NCBI GenBank assembly: GCA_944389215.1
Contig: CALXLN010000108.1
Coordinates: 1-64,000 of the forward strand
Length of the DNA stretch: 64,000 nt
Origin: an uncultured Opitutales bacterium
GTDB lineage: Bacteria > Verrucomicrobiota > Verrucomicrobiia > Opitutales > Intestinicryptomonadaceae
Reading direction: 5' to 3'
Positions 30,769 to 36,988 of this stretch are shown here, one piece after another. Within the stretch, counting starts at the first letter, position 1, and the number at the start of each line of letters is the position of its first letter. A model generated the notes under the pieces. That model ran no database searches. It was not told where the DNA came from and saw only the letters and a program-made list of their open reading frames with translations. The position numbers and the translations under genes were made by a program.

Positions 30769-30899
30769 TGCGTCCGCGGCGGCGCAATGCGCGTAGGGTA
30801 TTTTACGGTAGGGGCGCAGTCGTGGCAAATTGATATTTCAGCCGACATTTCAAGGATAAAAAGCTTTCCATGTGCGGAAAAATTTTTTTTAATGTTGGC

Positions 30900-32315
30900 A
30901 TGAAAAATTTGTTTATGGCGATATTTTGCGCGTTGCTGCCTTTTGCGTCTTTTGCGGCAAACGCGGTGGTTTACAAATATTCTCCGGATGCTCCGAAATC
31001 TGGGCGTTACGTTTTGACGTTGGATTCGCAGGACTGCCATGTCTATCCGACTCCGTTGGCGGATATAGCGCCGTTTGATATTGCCGGCAAAACCGTTGCC
31101 GTCGTAAAAGTAAAAGAGCCTATAAAATCTTTTGAGATTCGCCCGCTTTCAAAGAAAATTGCGGCTAAGCGGGTCGACGACACCACTCTACAATTTGAAA
31201 TTTCGGAGCCGTGCAATCTGAGCGTGGAAATAAACGGCATAGAACATCCGCTTTTCATATTCGCCAATCCCCCCGTAAAAAATCCCCCGAAAAAGGGCGA
31301 TAAAAACGTAATATTTTTTGAAGCCGGGAAGCTTCACGATTTGGGTTTGCGCAAGCAGCTGCCGTCAAATACCACTGTTTATATTGAAGGCGGTGCGGTC
31401 GTTTATGGCTCTTTTAGAACAGGGGATAGGGAAACTGGGGCGCCGATGGAAAATGTGCGCATTTGCGGAAATGGAATAATTTCGTGCGAGAAAATTCCGC
31501 CGGCGATAGAAAAGCGCGGTCCTTCGTCGCAAGGAATAGAATTTCACAACACATCCAATATAAAACTCGAAGGTTTTTGCATAGTGCAAAGCCCTAATTG
31601 GACGATTCCGATGTTTGCCTGCAAGGACATTCACATAAACAATATAAAAACCGTGAGCGAAATCGGATGGGACGACGGAATAGATGTCGTTTCTTGCAAA
31701 AATGTTCTGATAGAAAACTGTTTTCTGCGCAATAAGGACGATTGCATTGCCATTAAGGCCGGAGTCGGTTACGCTCCAAAATATTTCGACCACTCGAAAC
31801 CCAACAACGTAGAAAACGTTACCGTGCGCAAATGCGTAATATGGAACAGCATTTGGGGAAACGGATTGGAGATAGGTTTTGAAACGCGCGGAGACGAGAT
31901 AAAAAATATCGCCTTTGAAGATATAGACATAATTCACACCCAGCGCAATCCCAAGTGGAAAGAGGGCAAGGAAGGCACTTTTACAATCCACAACGGCGAC
32001 CGCGCGAAAATCCACAACGTGCTTTACAAAAACATACGCGTGGAGGACCCGGAAAACTATCTCATAGACATACGCATAATGTTTTCCAGATATTCAAAGG
32101 ACAAGAACCGCGGAAAGGTTTACGATATCCGTTTTGAAGACATATATGTTACGACAAAAGAGCCTCTAAAGAATATTTTTGAAGGCTTTAGCGAAGATTG
32201 TTCGGTATCTAACGTTGTATTGAAAAACGTTTTCATAAACGGGAAGCCGTTTGCGGAGTCGAAAGACATTTCGGTGGAAATTGGAAAATACGCCGAAATT
32301 CCGATTGTAGAGTAG
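30900..32315 (+). CDS. Secreted GH28-like (polygalacturonase family) right-handed beta-helix protein
   Basis: From ATG 30900 the protein has a signal peptide (MKNLFMAIFCALLPFASFA) and is about 471 residues long; the earlier ATG at 30870 would spoil the signal. The body is a parallel beta-helix with repeated short strands such as IKLEGFCIVQSPNW, VSCKNVLIENCFLRN and NVENVTVRKC. The family's active-site motifs appear in altered form: DDGIDVV, NKDDCIAIK and WGNGLEIG correspond to the NTDG, DD and GHG motifs of GH28. Family members hydrolyse galacturonan or related pectic chains. The altered motifs leave its substrate open. It stands alone and ends at a bidirectional terminator. Confidence 0.8.
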   Translation: MKNLFMAIFCALLPFASFAANAVVYKYSPDAPKSGRYVLTLDSQDCHVYPTPLADIAPFDIAGKTVAVVKVKEPIKSFEIRPLSKKIAAKRVDDTTLQFEISEPCNLSVEINGIEHPLFIFANPPVKNPPKKGDKNVIFFEAGKLHDLGLRKQLPSNTTVYIEGGAVVYGSFRTGDRETGAPMENVRICGNGIISCEKIPPAIEKRGPSSQGIEFHNTSNIKLEGFCIVQSPNWTIPMFACKDIHINNIKTVSEIGWDDGIDVVSCKNVLIENCFLRNKDDCIAIKAGVGYAPKYFDHSKPNNVENVTVRKCVIWNSIWGNGLEIGFETRGDEIKNIAFEDIDIIHTQRNPKWKEGKEGTFTIHNGDRAKIHNVLYKNIRVEDPENYLIDIRIMFSRYSKDKNRGKVYDIRFEDIYVTTKEPLKNIFEGFSEDCSVSNVVLKNVFINGKPFAESKDISVEIGKYAEIPIVE

Positions 32316-32360: not shown

Positions 32361-32401
32361 AAAAAAGGCGCCTGGAAGACAATCTTCCGGCGCCCTTTTT
32401 T
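32361..32401. terminator. Bidirectional intrinsic terminator
   Basis: GGCGCC and GGAAGA arms pair with TCTTCC and GGCGCC, with A-runs before and T-runs after, so it serves the GH28-like gene (+) and the Cys-repeat gene (-). Confidence 0.9.
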
Positions 32402-32412
32402 ATTTGGGAATT

Positions 32413-32877
32413 TTAATCTTCTTTTATTGAAACATCGGCTTCAAAACTTGCTATATCCACGTTTAATTTATTTGCAAGCGTGTTTGCCATGTTTTCTTCA
32501 AATCCTTTTTTCAAGAGCTCAGTATAGAAGTAGTCTTGCATGAGGGCCGCCATTACGGACTCGTCGGACAACTGCCCGAAAATTTCGGTAACGAGCTTTT
32601 CAAAGCAAAATCCTTCGCCGCCGCACTTGCAGTCGGCTTTCCCGCAGGAGCACTTTTTTCCGTCTTTCTTCCCGCCGTTTTTGCATGTGCACTTTTTGCC
32701 GCCTTTTTCACACGAGCACTTTTTCCCGTCTTTCCCGCAAGAACACTTCTTCTCAGGAGCTTTTTTAGCGGCTTTAGCCGGGGACGCTTTTTTTGCGGGG
32801 ACTTTTGCCGCTTTTGAAACGGCCTTTTTTACCGCTTTTTTTGCGGCTGGTTTTGTTGCTTTGGTCTCTTTTTTCAT
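32413..32877 (-). CDS. Small protein: histone-H1-like Lys/Ala tail, CxC metal-binding-type repeats, helical C-terminus
   Basis: A 154-residue protein in three parts. Residues 1-44 are almost only Lys, Ala and Pro, like the tails of bacterial H1-like and AlgP-type DNA-binding proteins. Residues 45-91 hold eleven cysteines at 45, 47, 54, 56, 63, 65, 76, 78, 83, 85 and 91, mostly as Cys-x-Cys pairs in units of the form KKCSCxKxG, a spacing like metallothioneins. Residues 92-154 look alpha-helical and acidic at the end. No signal peptide is seen, so it should be cytoplasmic and could bind both nucleic acid and soft metals. I do not recognise a named family. The gene is single, with its own terminator. 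Confidence 0.75.
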   Translation of the reverse strand: MKKETKATKPAAKKAVKKAVSKAAKVPAKKASPAKAAKKAPEKKCSCGKDGKKCSCEKGGKKCTCKNGGKKDGKKCSCGKADCKCGGEGFCFEKLVTEIFGQLSDESVMAALMQDYFYTELLKKGFEENMANTLANKLNVDIASFEADVSIKED

Positions 32878-33033: not shown

Positions 33034-34161
33034 ATGAAGATACCTCTCTTAGATTTGAAAAAACAATATGCGGGCGTCCGCGACGAAACAAAGAGAATGC
33101 TCGACGACATACTTGAATCGCAGTATTTCATAGGCGGTCCGTATGTGTCAAAATTCGAGGAAGCCGTTGCGGAATATTCCGAAACGAAGCATGCGGTGGG
33201 CGTATCAAGCGGCACCGACGCGCTTTTGGCCTCGCTGATGGCTTTGGGAATATACCGCTCTCCGCTTGACGCGGGGGATCCTGACGAAGTAATCGTTCCG
33301 GCGTATACGTTTTTTGCCACGGCAGGATGCGTTTGGCGCGCGGGCGCAAGGCCCGTGTTTGCCGACATAGACGCCGACACGTACAATATTGACCCCAAGT
33401 CTTTTGAATCTAAAATATCCGCCCGCACAAAGGCCGTTATGCCCGTCCATCTTTACGGACAGTGCGCGAGAATGGATGAAATTTGTGAAATAGCGCGCGC
33501 AAACAAACTGAAGGTTATTGAGGACGGCGCGCAGGCAATAGGCGCAAAGCGCGACGGCGTAAGGGTCGGAAATTTCGGAGACTGCGCATGTCTGAGTTTC
33601 TTTCCGTCGAAGAATTTGGGGGGACTTGGCGACGGCGGCATGGTTGTAACCAATGACGACAACTTGGCGCGGTCAGTGCGCGAAATGCGCAACCACGGTA
33701 TGGAGCCTAAGTATTTCCACAAGAGAGTCGGCGGAAACTTCAGGCTTGACGCCATTCAGGCGGCTGGTCTCTTGGCGAAACTTCCGTTCCTTGACAAATG
33801 GGGCGAAATGCGCAGGGCCAATGCAAAAGTTTACGACGCCGGCTTCTCAGGATGCGGGTCAGTGAAAACTCCCGTGATAGACCCGAAAAATTATTCGATT
33901 TACAACCAGTACATAATTTCGGTTCCGAACCGCGACGAAGTTCTGGCGCATTTGAGAAGCAAAGAAATCGGCTGCGAGATTTACTATCCGCTGCCGTTGC
34001 ATTTGCAGGAGTGTTTTGCGGCGTTGGGCTATAAAAAGGGAGATTTCCCCAACGCCGAATATGCTGCCGAACATACGCTTGCGCTGCCAATTTACCCGGA
34101 ACTGGAACGCGGCCAGTTGGACTTCATAATAGAATCGGTTCTTGAATCGGTTTCAAAATAA
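33034..34161 (+). CDS. DegT/DnrJ/EryC1/StrS family aminotransferase
   Basis: A 375-residue PLP-dependent sugar aminotransferase. Start ATG 33034 (MKIPLLDLKKQY) gives the standard N-terminus; the longer frame has no start signal. GVSSGTDALLASLMA binds the PLP phosphate, VIEDGAQAIGA carries the cofactor-contacting Asp, and SFFPSKNLGGLGDGG holds the Schiff-base lysine. The C-terminal LPLHLQECFAALGYKKGDFPNAE is typical of the WecE/ArnB-like group that transaminates keto-sugar nucleotides for surface polysaccharide. Downstream kdsB and kdsD (Kdo synthesis) support a role in LPS or related sugars, for example an amino-sugar. The exact sugar is unknown. Confidence 0.9.
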   Translation: MKIPLLDLKKQYAGVRDETKRMLDDILESQYFIGGPYVSKFEEAVAEYSETKHAVGVSSGTDALLASLMALGIYRSPLDAGDPDEVIVPAYTFFATAGCVWRAGARPVFADIDADTYNIDPKSFESKISARTKAVMPVHLYGQCARMDEICEIARANKLKVIEDGAQAIGAKRDGVRVGNFGDCACLSFFPSKNLGGLGDGGMVVTNDDNLARSVREMRNHGMEPKYFHKRVGGNFRLDAIQAAGLLAKLPFLDKWGEMRRANAKVYDAGFSGCGSVKTPVIDPKNYSIYNQYIISVPNRDEVLAHLRSKEIGCEIYYPLPLHLQECFAALGYKKGDFPNAEYAAEHTLALPIYPELERGQLDFIIESVLESVSK

Positions 34162-34176
34162 TGTAGTATTTAACGC

Positions 34177-35235
34177 ATGAAGATTTTGTTAAGCATATTC
34201 GAGGTTGCGAGCGTCGCGGTTCCTCTGTTTATAGCGCTTTTATTTTTGGCGCGTTCGGGCGAGTCTTACAGGGAGAAATACGATGTTTCAAAATTCAGGT
34301 TTTGGGGCCTTTCCAGCGGGCAGTATGTTTTCCTCTTTAGGCTCATAGGAATATTCTTCCTATTGCTGGCGTGTTTTGCGGTTTATAAAAACTACATAGA
34401 GGAGCCTTCGGCCGAATACAACGAAACAAAAGAATTTTGGGACGAAATCAACAAGCGTTCGGGCGATGTATTTTCCATGGCAATGTTGCTTGGTGCCGCA
34501 ATAGCGATTCCGGCAAGGATGGCGTCGACGCGTTTTCCCGGGAAACCGCTCGCTTTGCTGGGCGGAAAGGCTGTTATAGAGCGCGTTTACGACGCGTGCA
34601 AACAGAGCGAGTTCGCCGAAAAAGCGGTAATATTGACCGACAGCATAGAGATAGCGGAATTTGCAGACCGCATTTCCGCTCCGGTAATAATGACTTCGGA
34701 AAAATGCCGCTCCGGTACCGAGCGCATTATTGAGGCGTCGGAAGAAATCGGAGCGGAATTTGTTGTAAATGTCCAGGGAGACGAGCCGTTTATATCTCCC
34801 AAGCTAATTGATGCTGTAATAGAGGCGCATAGGGCTTACAATAGCGATTTGGTTACGGCGGTTGGGAAAATCGGCGACGCAAGCACGCTAATAAATCCGA
34901 ATGTTGTAAAGGTATTGCGCGACGGCGAAGGCCGCGCCCTTTACTTCAGCCGCAGCCCGCTGCCGTATATGAGGGGTGAGGGAAACCCCGCAAAATGGCT
35001 TGAGCATTACGATTATTGGAGGCACATAGGCATTTACGGATATTCGGCAAAGGCTTTGGCCAGATACGATTCCCTGCCCGTGTCCGCCATGGAGAAGTGC
35101 GAAATGCTTGAGCAGTTGCGCTTTGTGTCGGCGGGATACAAATTTGACATAGTGGAGACCGACTACCAATCGATAGGAATCGATACTCCTGAGGATTTGG
35201 AGGCCGCTGAAGAATATTTAAAATCTTTAGGTTAA
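34177..35235 (+). CDS. kdsB: 3-deoxy-manno-octulosonate cytidylyltransferase with N-terminal membrane extension
   Basis: The C-terminal 245 residues are a complete KdsB: IPARMASTRFPGKPLA near residue 112, KCRSGTERI, VNVQGDEPFI, RSPLPY and the closing IGIDTPEDLEAAEEYL. KdsB activates Kdo with CTP to CMP-Kdo for lipid A core assembly. The first 107 residues are not part of KdsB: two hydrophobic segments (about 2-25 and 51-70) and a charged linker precede the enzyme. If translated from 34177 the enzyme would be membrane-tethered. An internal ATG at 34477 (MAMLLGAAIAIPAR) would give a normal-sized enzyme, so the front may instead be a separate small membrane protein that has lost its stop. kdsD follows one base after the stop. 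Confidence 0.85.
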   Translation: MKILLSIFEVASVAVPLFIALLFLARSGESYREKYDVSKFRFWGLSSGQYVFLFRLIGIFFLLLACFAVYKNYIEEPSAEYNETKEFWDEINKRSGDVFSMAMLLGAAIAIPARMASTRFPGKPLALLGGKAVIERVYDACKQSEFAEKAVILTDSIEIAEFADRISAPVIMTSEKCRSGTERIIEASEEIGAEFVVNVQGDEPFISPKLIDAVIEAHRAYNSDLVTAVGKIGDASTLINPNVVKVLRDGEGRALYFSRSPLPYMRGEGNPAKWLEHYDYWRHIGIYGYSAKALARYDSLPVSAMEKCEMLEQLRFVSAGYKFDIVETDYQSIGIDTPEDLEAAEEYLKSLG

Positions 35236-35236
35236 A

Positions 35237-36208
35237 ATGGAAGACTCTGAACTTATTGAGCTTGGAAAGGCCGTATTGAACTGCGAGGCCGACACGATAA
35301 AAAACGCCACTTCGCGGGTGGGCGAAAGTTTCGCCAAAGCTATCCGGGAAATTCTGTCCCACAAGGGAAAATTGATGGTAAGCGGCGTCGGGAAGTCGGG
35401 GCTTGTGGGGCAGAAAATAGCCGCCACTCTTTCCAGCACGGGTACTCCTGCAGTATTCATGCACGCTTGCGACGCAGTCCATGGGGACTTGGGCGTGTAC
35501 GAGCCGGGAGACCCGACTTTGCTTATTTCAAACAGCGGCTCCACGGTGGAGTGCTTGCGTCTGATTCCCATACTTAAAAAATTTAATTCCACGATAATCG
35601 CCCTAATCGGCAATCTCGATTCTCCGATGGGGCGCGATTGCGATATAATTTTAGACGCTTCTTCGTGCGGGGAGGCCGATCCGTTGGGAATAGTTCCCAC
35701 TAACTCCACGACGCTCGCCATGGCAATGGGCGATGCCATGGCTTGCGCTCTAATGAAGGCGCGCGGATTTTCAAAAGAGGATTTTGCCAAATTCCATCCT
35801 GCCGGTCAGCTTGGCAGAAACCTTTTGCTGAATGTAAAAGACGTTATGAATCCGCTTTCGCACTGCGCGGTTGTCAAGCCGGAAAACACCGTGCGCGAAG
35901 TCGTAATAGCCATGACGCGCTTCCCCTTGGGCGCCGCCTGCGTTGTGGATGAAAGCGGCGTTTTAACCGGATTTGTAACCGACGGGGATGTTCGCAGAAT
36001 GCTTCAGGCTGTCGTTGATTTGGACGCTCTTACTTGCGGGGAAATGATGACAAAAAAACCGATTTGCGTCGAGCCCGAAGCTTCTTTAGGGCGGGCTGTT
36101 AAACTTATGGAAGACAGAAAGTCAAAGATTTCCGTATTGCCTGTCGTAGACGAAAACGGAAAATGTTTGGGGCTTTTGCGTTTGCACGACATCTACCAGC
36201 CCCAATAA
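35237..36208 (+). CDS. kdsD: D-arabinose-5-phosphate isomerase
   Basis: A 323-residue KdsD/GutQ-type enzyme. The SIS domain (about 1-190) has VSGVGKSGLVGQKIAATL and the phosphate-sugar loop SNSGSTVECL; two CBS domains follow (about 205-320). It converts ribulose-5-phosphate to arabinose-5-phosphate, the first step to Kdo. Placement directly after kdsB, with no gap to speak of, argues for KdsD in LPS synthesis over GutQ in sugar use. Confidence 0.93.
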   Translation: MEDSELIELGKAVLNCEADTIKNATSRVGESFAKAIREILSHKGKLMVSGVGKSGLVGQKIAATLSSTGTPAVFMHACDAVHGDLGVYEPGDPTLLISNSGSTVECLRLIPILKKFNSTIIALIGNLDSPMGRDCDIILDASSCGEADPLGIVPTNSTTLAMAMGDAMACALMKARGFSKEDFAKFHPAGQLGRNLLLNVKDVMNPLSHCAVVKPENTVREVVIAMTRFPLGAACVVDESGVLTGFVTDGDVRRMLQAVVDLDALTCGEMMTKKPICVEPEASLGRAVKLMEDRKSKISVLPVVDENGKCLGLLRLHDIYQPQ

Positions 36209-36243
36209 ACGAACACAAGTCAACCTGCGCATTAATTGAAAAT

Positions 36244-36813
36244 ATGAAAATATCTTCAACACTGAAATTTTTATGCAAATGGATTGCGCATCCCATGTCG
36301 ACGGGGGCGGTATGCCCCAGTTCGAGATTTTTGGCGCGCAAGATGGTCTGCGGGGTCGGAGGCAGGCGCGAAGGCGGCGTTGTCGTGGAGTTGGGCGCCG
36401 GAACGGGCGCTGTAACAAAATATTTAATAGAGGCGGGTTTTGATAAGAACTCATCCCTATACTGTGTGGAATTTGATCAGGGGTTGTCGGATACTCTGAG
36501 GCGGGATTTCCCGACGGCGAGAGTCGCAACCGACAGCGCCGAAAATATCCGCAAAATAGTCGGGGACGATTTGCCGAAAGTTTATGCAATAGTTTCGAGC
36601 CTCCCGCTTCTAAGCCTTCCCGGGGATATGGTAGCGCGCATCTTGAGCGAGGTGGAGTCCGCTCTGCCAGTAGGCGGCAGGTTTGTGCAATACACCTATA
36701 ATTTAAGAAGGAATCCGGATTCGATAGGCTTCAATAAAATGCGGCACATAGGAGTGTCGAAAGTGTATTTGAACATACCGCCCGCGCGCGTGGATGTGTT
36801 CGAGAAAATTTAG
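36244..36813 (+). CDS. Class I SAM-dependent methyltransferase (phospholipid N-methyltransferase-like)
   Basis: A 189-residue methyltransferase from ATG 36244. VVELGAGTGAVTKYL is the SAM-binding motif I, YCVEFD motif II, and IVSSLPLLSLP the substrate-side motif resembling the PmtA/rRNA-dimethylase-like group. The end NIPPARVDVFEKI is a usual C-terminus for this family. Proteins of this kind methylate phosphatidylethanolamine or related small targets. The gene ends in a stop formed right at the edge of a direct repeat: its last 158 bases are duplicated downstream (36831-36988). It sits 35 bases behind kdsD and likely belongs to that operon. The substrate is inferred only. Confidence 0.8.
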   Translation: MKISSTLKFLCKWIAHPMSTGAVCPSSRFLARKMVCGVGGRREGGVVVELGAGTGAVTKYLIEAGFDKNSSLYCVEFDQGLSDTLRRDFPTARVATDSAENIRKIVGDDLPKVYAIVSSLPLLSLPGDMVARILSEVESALPVGGRFVQYTYNLRRNPDSIGFNKMRHIGVSKVYLNIPPARVDVFEKI

Positions 36814-36988
36814 ATAAACTAATCTGGGCTGAGTCCGCTCTGCCAGTAGGCGGCAGGTTTGTGCAATACACCTATAATTTAAGAAGGAATCCGGATTCGA
36901 TAGGCTTCAATAAAATGCGGCACATAGGAGTGTCGAAAGTGTATTTAAACATACCGCCCGCGCGCGTGGATGTGTTCGAGAAAATTTA
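36655..36988. repeat. Direct duplication of the methyltransferase 3' end (158 bp)
   Basis: 36655-36812 recurs at 36831-36988 with a single visible base change (TTTGAAC against TTTAAAC) and an 18-base spacer. The near identity points to a recent event. Confidence 0.95.

Follow-up and report, generated by a model that had tools for sequence, protein, structure and literature searches.

Proteins with Lys/Ala-rich tails are common in bacteria, and few of them are understood. Lys-rich tails are known on RNA-binding proteins as well; the chlamydial nucleoprotein Hc2 is not known to have a C-terminal domain of the kind described below or a cysteine strip, and protamines are Arg-rich and have no known folded domain. 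CxC-rich peptides readily bind soft metals, as the chemistry of metallothioneins illustrates. The closest described system is AlgP of Pseudomonas, a histone H1-like protein with KPAA repeats in which a disordered Lys/Ala/Pro tail is joined to a predicted helical domain. KPAA peptides bind DNA in vitro, AlgP is located on polyphosphate granules, and a role in DNA binding and granule placement is ascribed to the Lys/Ala tails of both AlgP and PhaF (PMC9239181). Bacterial metallothioneins (SmtA, PflQ2 MT, MymT) are small and stand alone; their closely spaced cysteines are distributed in a conserved way, and they have no predicted fold in the metal-free state; PflQ2 MT holds a Zn3Cys9His cluster (PMC7387436).

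The window, by which we mean the whole stretch of 64,000 nucleotides that was analysed, encodes a three-part protein that is real, conserved and lineage-restricted and, judged from sequence comparison, apparently undescribed. Its modules are of known kinds, but their combination is new. Like AlgP, it has a predicted disordered Lys/Ala tail and a helical domain, and the tails of both proteins have few or no conserved residues. Unlike in AlgP, the tail is N-terminal, the helical domain comprises about 60 rather than 124 residues, and a Cys linker separates them; sequence searches gave no match to AlgP. Hc2 shares the Lys/Ala-rich tail, and protamines share the combination of polycation and cysteines. 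The cysteine strip resembles the metallothioneins in Cys content, Cys spacing and lack of a predicted metal-free fold, but it is a linker rather than a stand-alone protein, its Cys number varies, and it has no Pfam match.

Anatomy and setting of the gene

The features of the locus are as follows.

32413–32877, minus strand: whole gene, 154 aa, encoding Lys/Ala tail, Cys linker and helical C-terminal domain
32746–32877, minus strand: Lys/Ala-rich tail, residues 1–44, net charge +15, disordered as judged from composition and a pLDDT under 50
32605–32745, minus strand: Cys linker, residues 45–91, with 11 Cys and five CxC, including the core CSCGKADCKC
32416–32604, minus strand: conserved acidic C-terminal domain, residues 92–154 (63 residues), net charge about -8
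32361–32401, no strand: bidirectional intrinsic terminator common to the gene and the convergent GH28 gene
30870–32315: GH28 gene, convergent neighbour
33034–34161, plus strand: DegT/DnrJ/EryC1 aminotransferase gene, divergent neighbour

Sequence conservation identifies the open reading frame as a genuine gene. Homologues occur in 11 of the 14 genomes of the genus, and conservation of the amino-acid pattern of this frame among those 11 genomes (38–58% identity of the aligned homologues to the window protein) rules out a frame artefact. The frame and the 44-residue Lys/Ala tail followed by eleven cysteines in CxC units across residues 45–91, as proposed by the sequence-only reading, were borne out, and the strand, which that reading left unstated, is minus; composition and the helices predicted by AlphaFold2 likewise uphold the proposed division into tail, cysteine strip and helical domain. 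No second convincing copy was found in the window genome.

The tail consists of 39% Lys and 30% Ala, and both the tail and most of the cysteine strip were modelled by AlphaFold2 at low confidence (pLDDT about 40–60), so that the window protein has the predicted disordered Lys/Ala(/Pro) tail characteristic of AlgP and PhaF. The C-terminal domain, by contrast, is predicted at high confidence to form three helices (residues 92–104, 106–123 and 128–137), followed by a short conserved end, with a mean pLDDT of 88 when the domain is modelled alone. Six positions of this domain (E, F, L, L, G, A) are invariant among the aligned homologues from the genus. Fold searches with the full model and with the C-terminal domain alone gave no match at E ≤0.001 among PDB or viral models, and the top matches were scattered, unrelated proteins (best Z 4.3, rmsd 8.8 over 66 residues); the predicted fold is not one that we can name, and it may be a known one. 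Searching PDB sequences returned chance-level matches alone. A match at 0.001 to Francisella glucose-6-phosphate isomerase was also assigned to chance, as it spans a helix-turn-helix stretch of only about 40 residues and its best domain taken singly has an i-Evalue of 0.027.

The gene is followed by a strong hairpin (-28.9 kcal/mol, z -4.7) whose U-runs can be read on both strands. Hairpins with U-runs also lie 3' of most of the six homologues examined, so the gene appears to be transcribed by itself, towards the convergent GH28 gene. In 10 of 11 homologous loci it is divergent from the DegT/DnrJ aminotransferase gene, which is usually followed by KdsB- and SIS/CBS (KdsD-like) genes; in the exception (G012), the homologue sits between the methyltransferase gene of that sugar cluster and mutL. 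Among the neighbours examined there is no metal-homeostasis gene or adjacent metal regulator, which leaves the earlier suggestion of a metal-sensing protein unsupported. Two HU/IHF-type proteins and a polyphosphate kinase are encoded elsewhere in the window genome, which makes polyphosphate a possible ligand beside DNA.

Two further observations concern the sugar cluster. The gene at 34177–35235 encodes a KdsB-like cytidylyltransferase (PF02348 at 109–322) with about 100 extra N-terminal residues resembling two membrane helices, and in several related genomes (L048, L049, L050, L053, L054, L056) the gene next door opens with the same kind of extension. A 158-base direct repeat (36655–36812 and 36831–36988; 99% identical, 176 bases start-to-start) copies the end of the methyltransferase gene (36163–36813), and either arose by recent tandem duplication or is an artefact of assembly.

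A family confined to one lineage

Neither Pfam nor NCBIfam yielded a convincing family match to the window protein, or any match to an AlgP or phasin domain, and nothing relevant was found in the literature on Cys-rich lysine-tailed bacterial proteins. Pfam HC2 (PF07382, chlamydial H1-like nucleoprotein) matched one of seven family members scanned at 8.8e-6, possibly through composition, and left the window protein unmatched. Metallothionein profiles gave no match at E up to 10 to the whole protein or to four isolated linkers, although HMMER filters may miss short low-complexity stretches. The SEC-C zinc motif, considered on account of the sequence C-x-C-G-K, was rejected because its spacing differs and Pfam gave no match.

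All 11 homologues from the genus have both the tail and the C-terminal domain; the relatives with a homologue that bear names are Opitutales MAGs and Puniceicoccaceae bacterium Marseille-Q1082. Among the remaining genomes, G002 has no homologue match anywhere, its DegT gene being immediately preceded upstream by a valS-like gene, and the stretch fetched from G013 stops just upstream of the DegT gene. G010 is uninformative on the presence of a homologue, since it returned no candidate for any query, GroEL and DnaK included. G013 and other families of the order gave low-complexity matches at E >0.01, several of them interrupted by stops, which were attributed to chance.

Profiles of the C-terminal domain, run against 273 genomes from the order and 338 from the phylum, found nothing beyond the taxonomic family, and a whole-protein search of 384 genomes of the class found nothing beyond the genus at E 1e-4, these three genome sets overlapping; phage records gave no match. 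The protein family therefore appears restricted to one taxonomic family, in keeping with the initial impression that it belonged to no familiar family. In the sister genus, two genomes (G014 and G016) each encode two different small Lys/Ala-tailed, Cys-free proteins (L042–L045) whose C-terminal segment shows weak similarity (E 1e-4 to 1e-3 against a genus-only profile), and we tentatively regard these proteins as relatives; their better scores with a second profile are circular, because these proteins were in its alignment. Their C-termini are short and helical-looking, and they may represent paralogous families of tail proteins.

Variation in the cysteine strip

The eleven cysteines of the window protein (positions 45, 47, 54, 56, 63, 65, 76, 78, 83, 85 and 91) fall within 47 residues that contain no His, and ten of them form the five CxC pairs. 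The frame has the highest CxC count per 50 residues among the 505 stop-to-stop frames of at least 60 aa across the window. Ten of the 11 homologues have a Cys linker, so the finding that would have refuted the sequence-only reading, Cys repeats missing from most relatives, was not made. The ten linkers together contain 23 CxC pairs against 12.1 ± 2.8 after per-linker shuffling, and none of 5000 shuffles reached 23, which does not amount to a strict probability because the linkers share ancestry. The core C-x(0,1)-C-x4-C-x-C, a pattern picked after inspection of these same related linkers, recurs in six of the ten, where shuffling gives 0.45 and none of 5000 shuffles reaches six, with instances such as CSCGKADCKC (residues 76–85 of the window protein), CCGKKDCKC and CKCGNPNCKC.

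The number of linker cysteines ranges from 3 to 11, with just 3 or 4 in G005 and G012. The window gene carries a 27-base tandem repeat (32664–32752), which marks its version of the strip as an expansion; the 11-Cys state is the extreme of the family, arising partly from that repeat. At the other end, the homologue of G011 (L013) has no linker Cys and bears instead a 159-residue Lys/Pro/Gln-rich tail, making it a natural Cys-less variant. A DnaK-GroEL-DegT tree places G011 as sister to G006, which has 7 Cys, with 100% support, while deeper branches of the genus are unresolved. Loss of the strip is the simplest reading of this placement, and an apparent loss in the G011 lineage indicates that the strip is usual yet dispensable. 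By sequence comparison, it is a fast-evolving accessory, and the tail and helical domain are the constant parts. The label "metallothionein-like" given to the strip at the outset is too strong for a family with no constant Cys pattern.

Possible functions of the protein

We favor, with a probability of roughly 0.45, a small lineage-specific tether that binds polyanions through its tail, oligomerises or binds a partner through its C-terminal domain, and carries a thiolate metal site in its hinge. The tail would bind DNA or polyphosphate without sequence specificity, working like the tails of AlgP and PhaF; the acidic three-helix domain would be the functional core that is conserved, most likely serving to oligomerise the protein or to bind a partner; and a CxC-type site, most likely for Zn(II) or Cu(I), would stiffen or cross-link the hinge, with the expanded strip of the window protein giving extra metal capacity. 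This proposal is consistent with a tail composition resembling AlgP, PhaF and H1 tails, the HC2 match of one member, the presence in all genus homologues of the tail and of a confidently predicted domain with invariant positions, the recurring core motif, and the polyphosphate kinase and HU/IHF-type proteins of the genome. Against it, there is no homologue of known function, a Cys count of 3 to 11 does not resemble that of a metal site with fixed stoichiometry, weak matches in low-complexity sequence, such as that to HC2, can stem from composition alone, the aminotransferase and KDO-type sugar neighbours suggest neither metals nor nucleoid, and RNA-binding proteins also bear Lys-rich tails. 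Since CxC-rich peptides take soft metals readily, the window protein is likely to bind metal in vitro; a physiological role of the strip in metal binding is less certain because the Cys count varies.

The cysteines could themselves be the functional element, forming a metallothionein-type metal buffer that the tail merely places on DNA to shield the chromosome from metal or oxidative damage. Eleven cysteines with no His, five CxC with metallothionein-like Lys, Ser and Gly neighbours, and retention of Cys in all homologues but one agree with such a role, which we nonetheless consider unlikely given the few cysteines of G005 and G012, their absence from G011 and the weak sister-genus relatives, and the lack of a metallothionein family match or an identified adjacent metal regulator. 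We regard as similarly doubtful an AlgP/PhaF-like granule tether, in which the C-terminal domain would sit on a polyphosphate or storage granule or an enzyme, the tail on the nucleoid, and the strip would be a spacer whose cysteines matter little. The ingredients match those of AlgP (PMC9239181), polyphosphate kinase is encoded, and in G011 a 159-residue Lys/Pro-rich tail stands in place of the strip; however, AlgP and phasin families are unmatched, the helical domain has half the length of that of AlgP, and the Cys linker is otherwise kept throughout. Less probable again, the protein would represent a novel class of nucleoid proteins whose metal-thiolate hinge, expanded and lost between related species, couples the Zn or Cu status of the cell to chromatin compaction or tethering. 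Protamine-like compaction, in which Zn bridges or disulfides between neighbouring molecules would lock DNA compact under oxidising or starvation conditions, would account for the pairing of polycation with cysteines and tolerate their variable number, but is improbable given the Cys-less linker of G011 and the lack of a known condensed developmental form here.

This conserved small family joins a Lys/Ala tail to a hinge that varies from none to eleven cysteines among species of one genus, and that variation supplies natural variants for probing what a metal or redox site contributes to a tail that binds nucleoid or granules. A function for the window protein would be the first for a family limited to a little-studied group of Opitutales.
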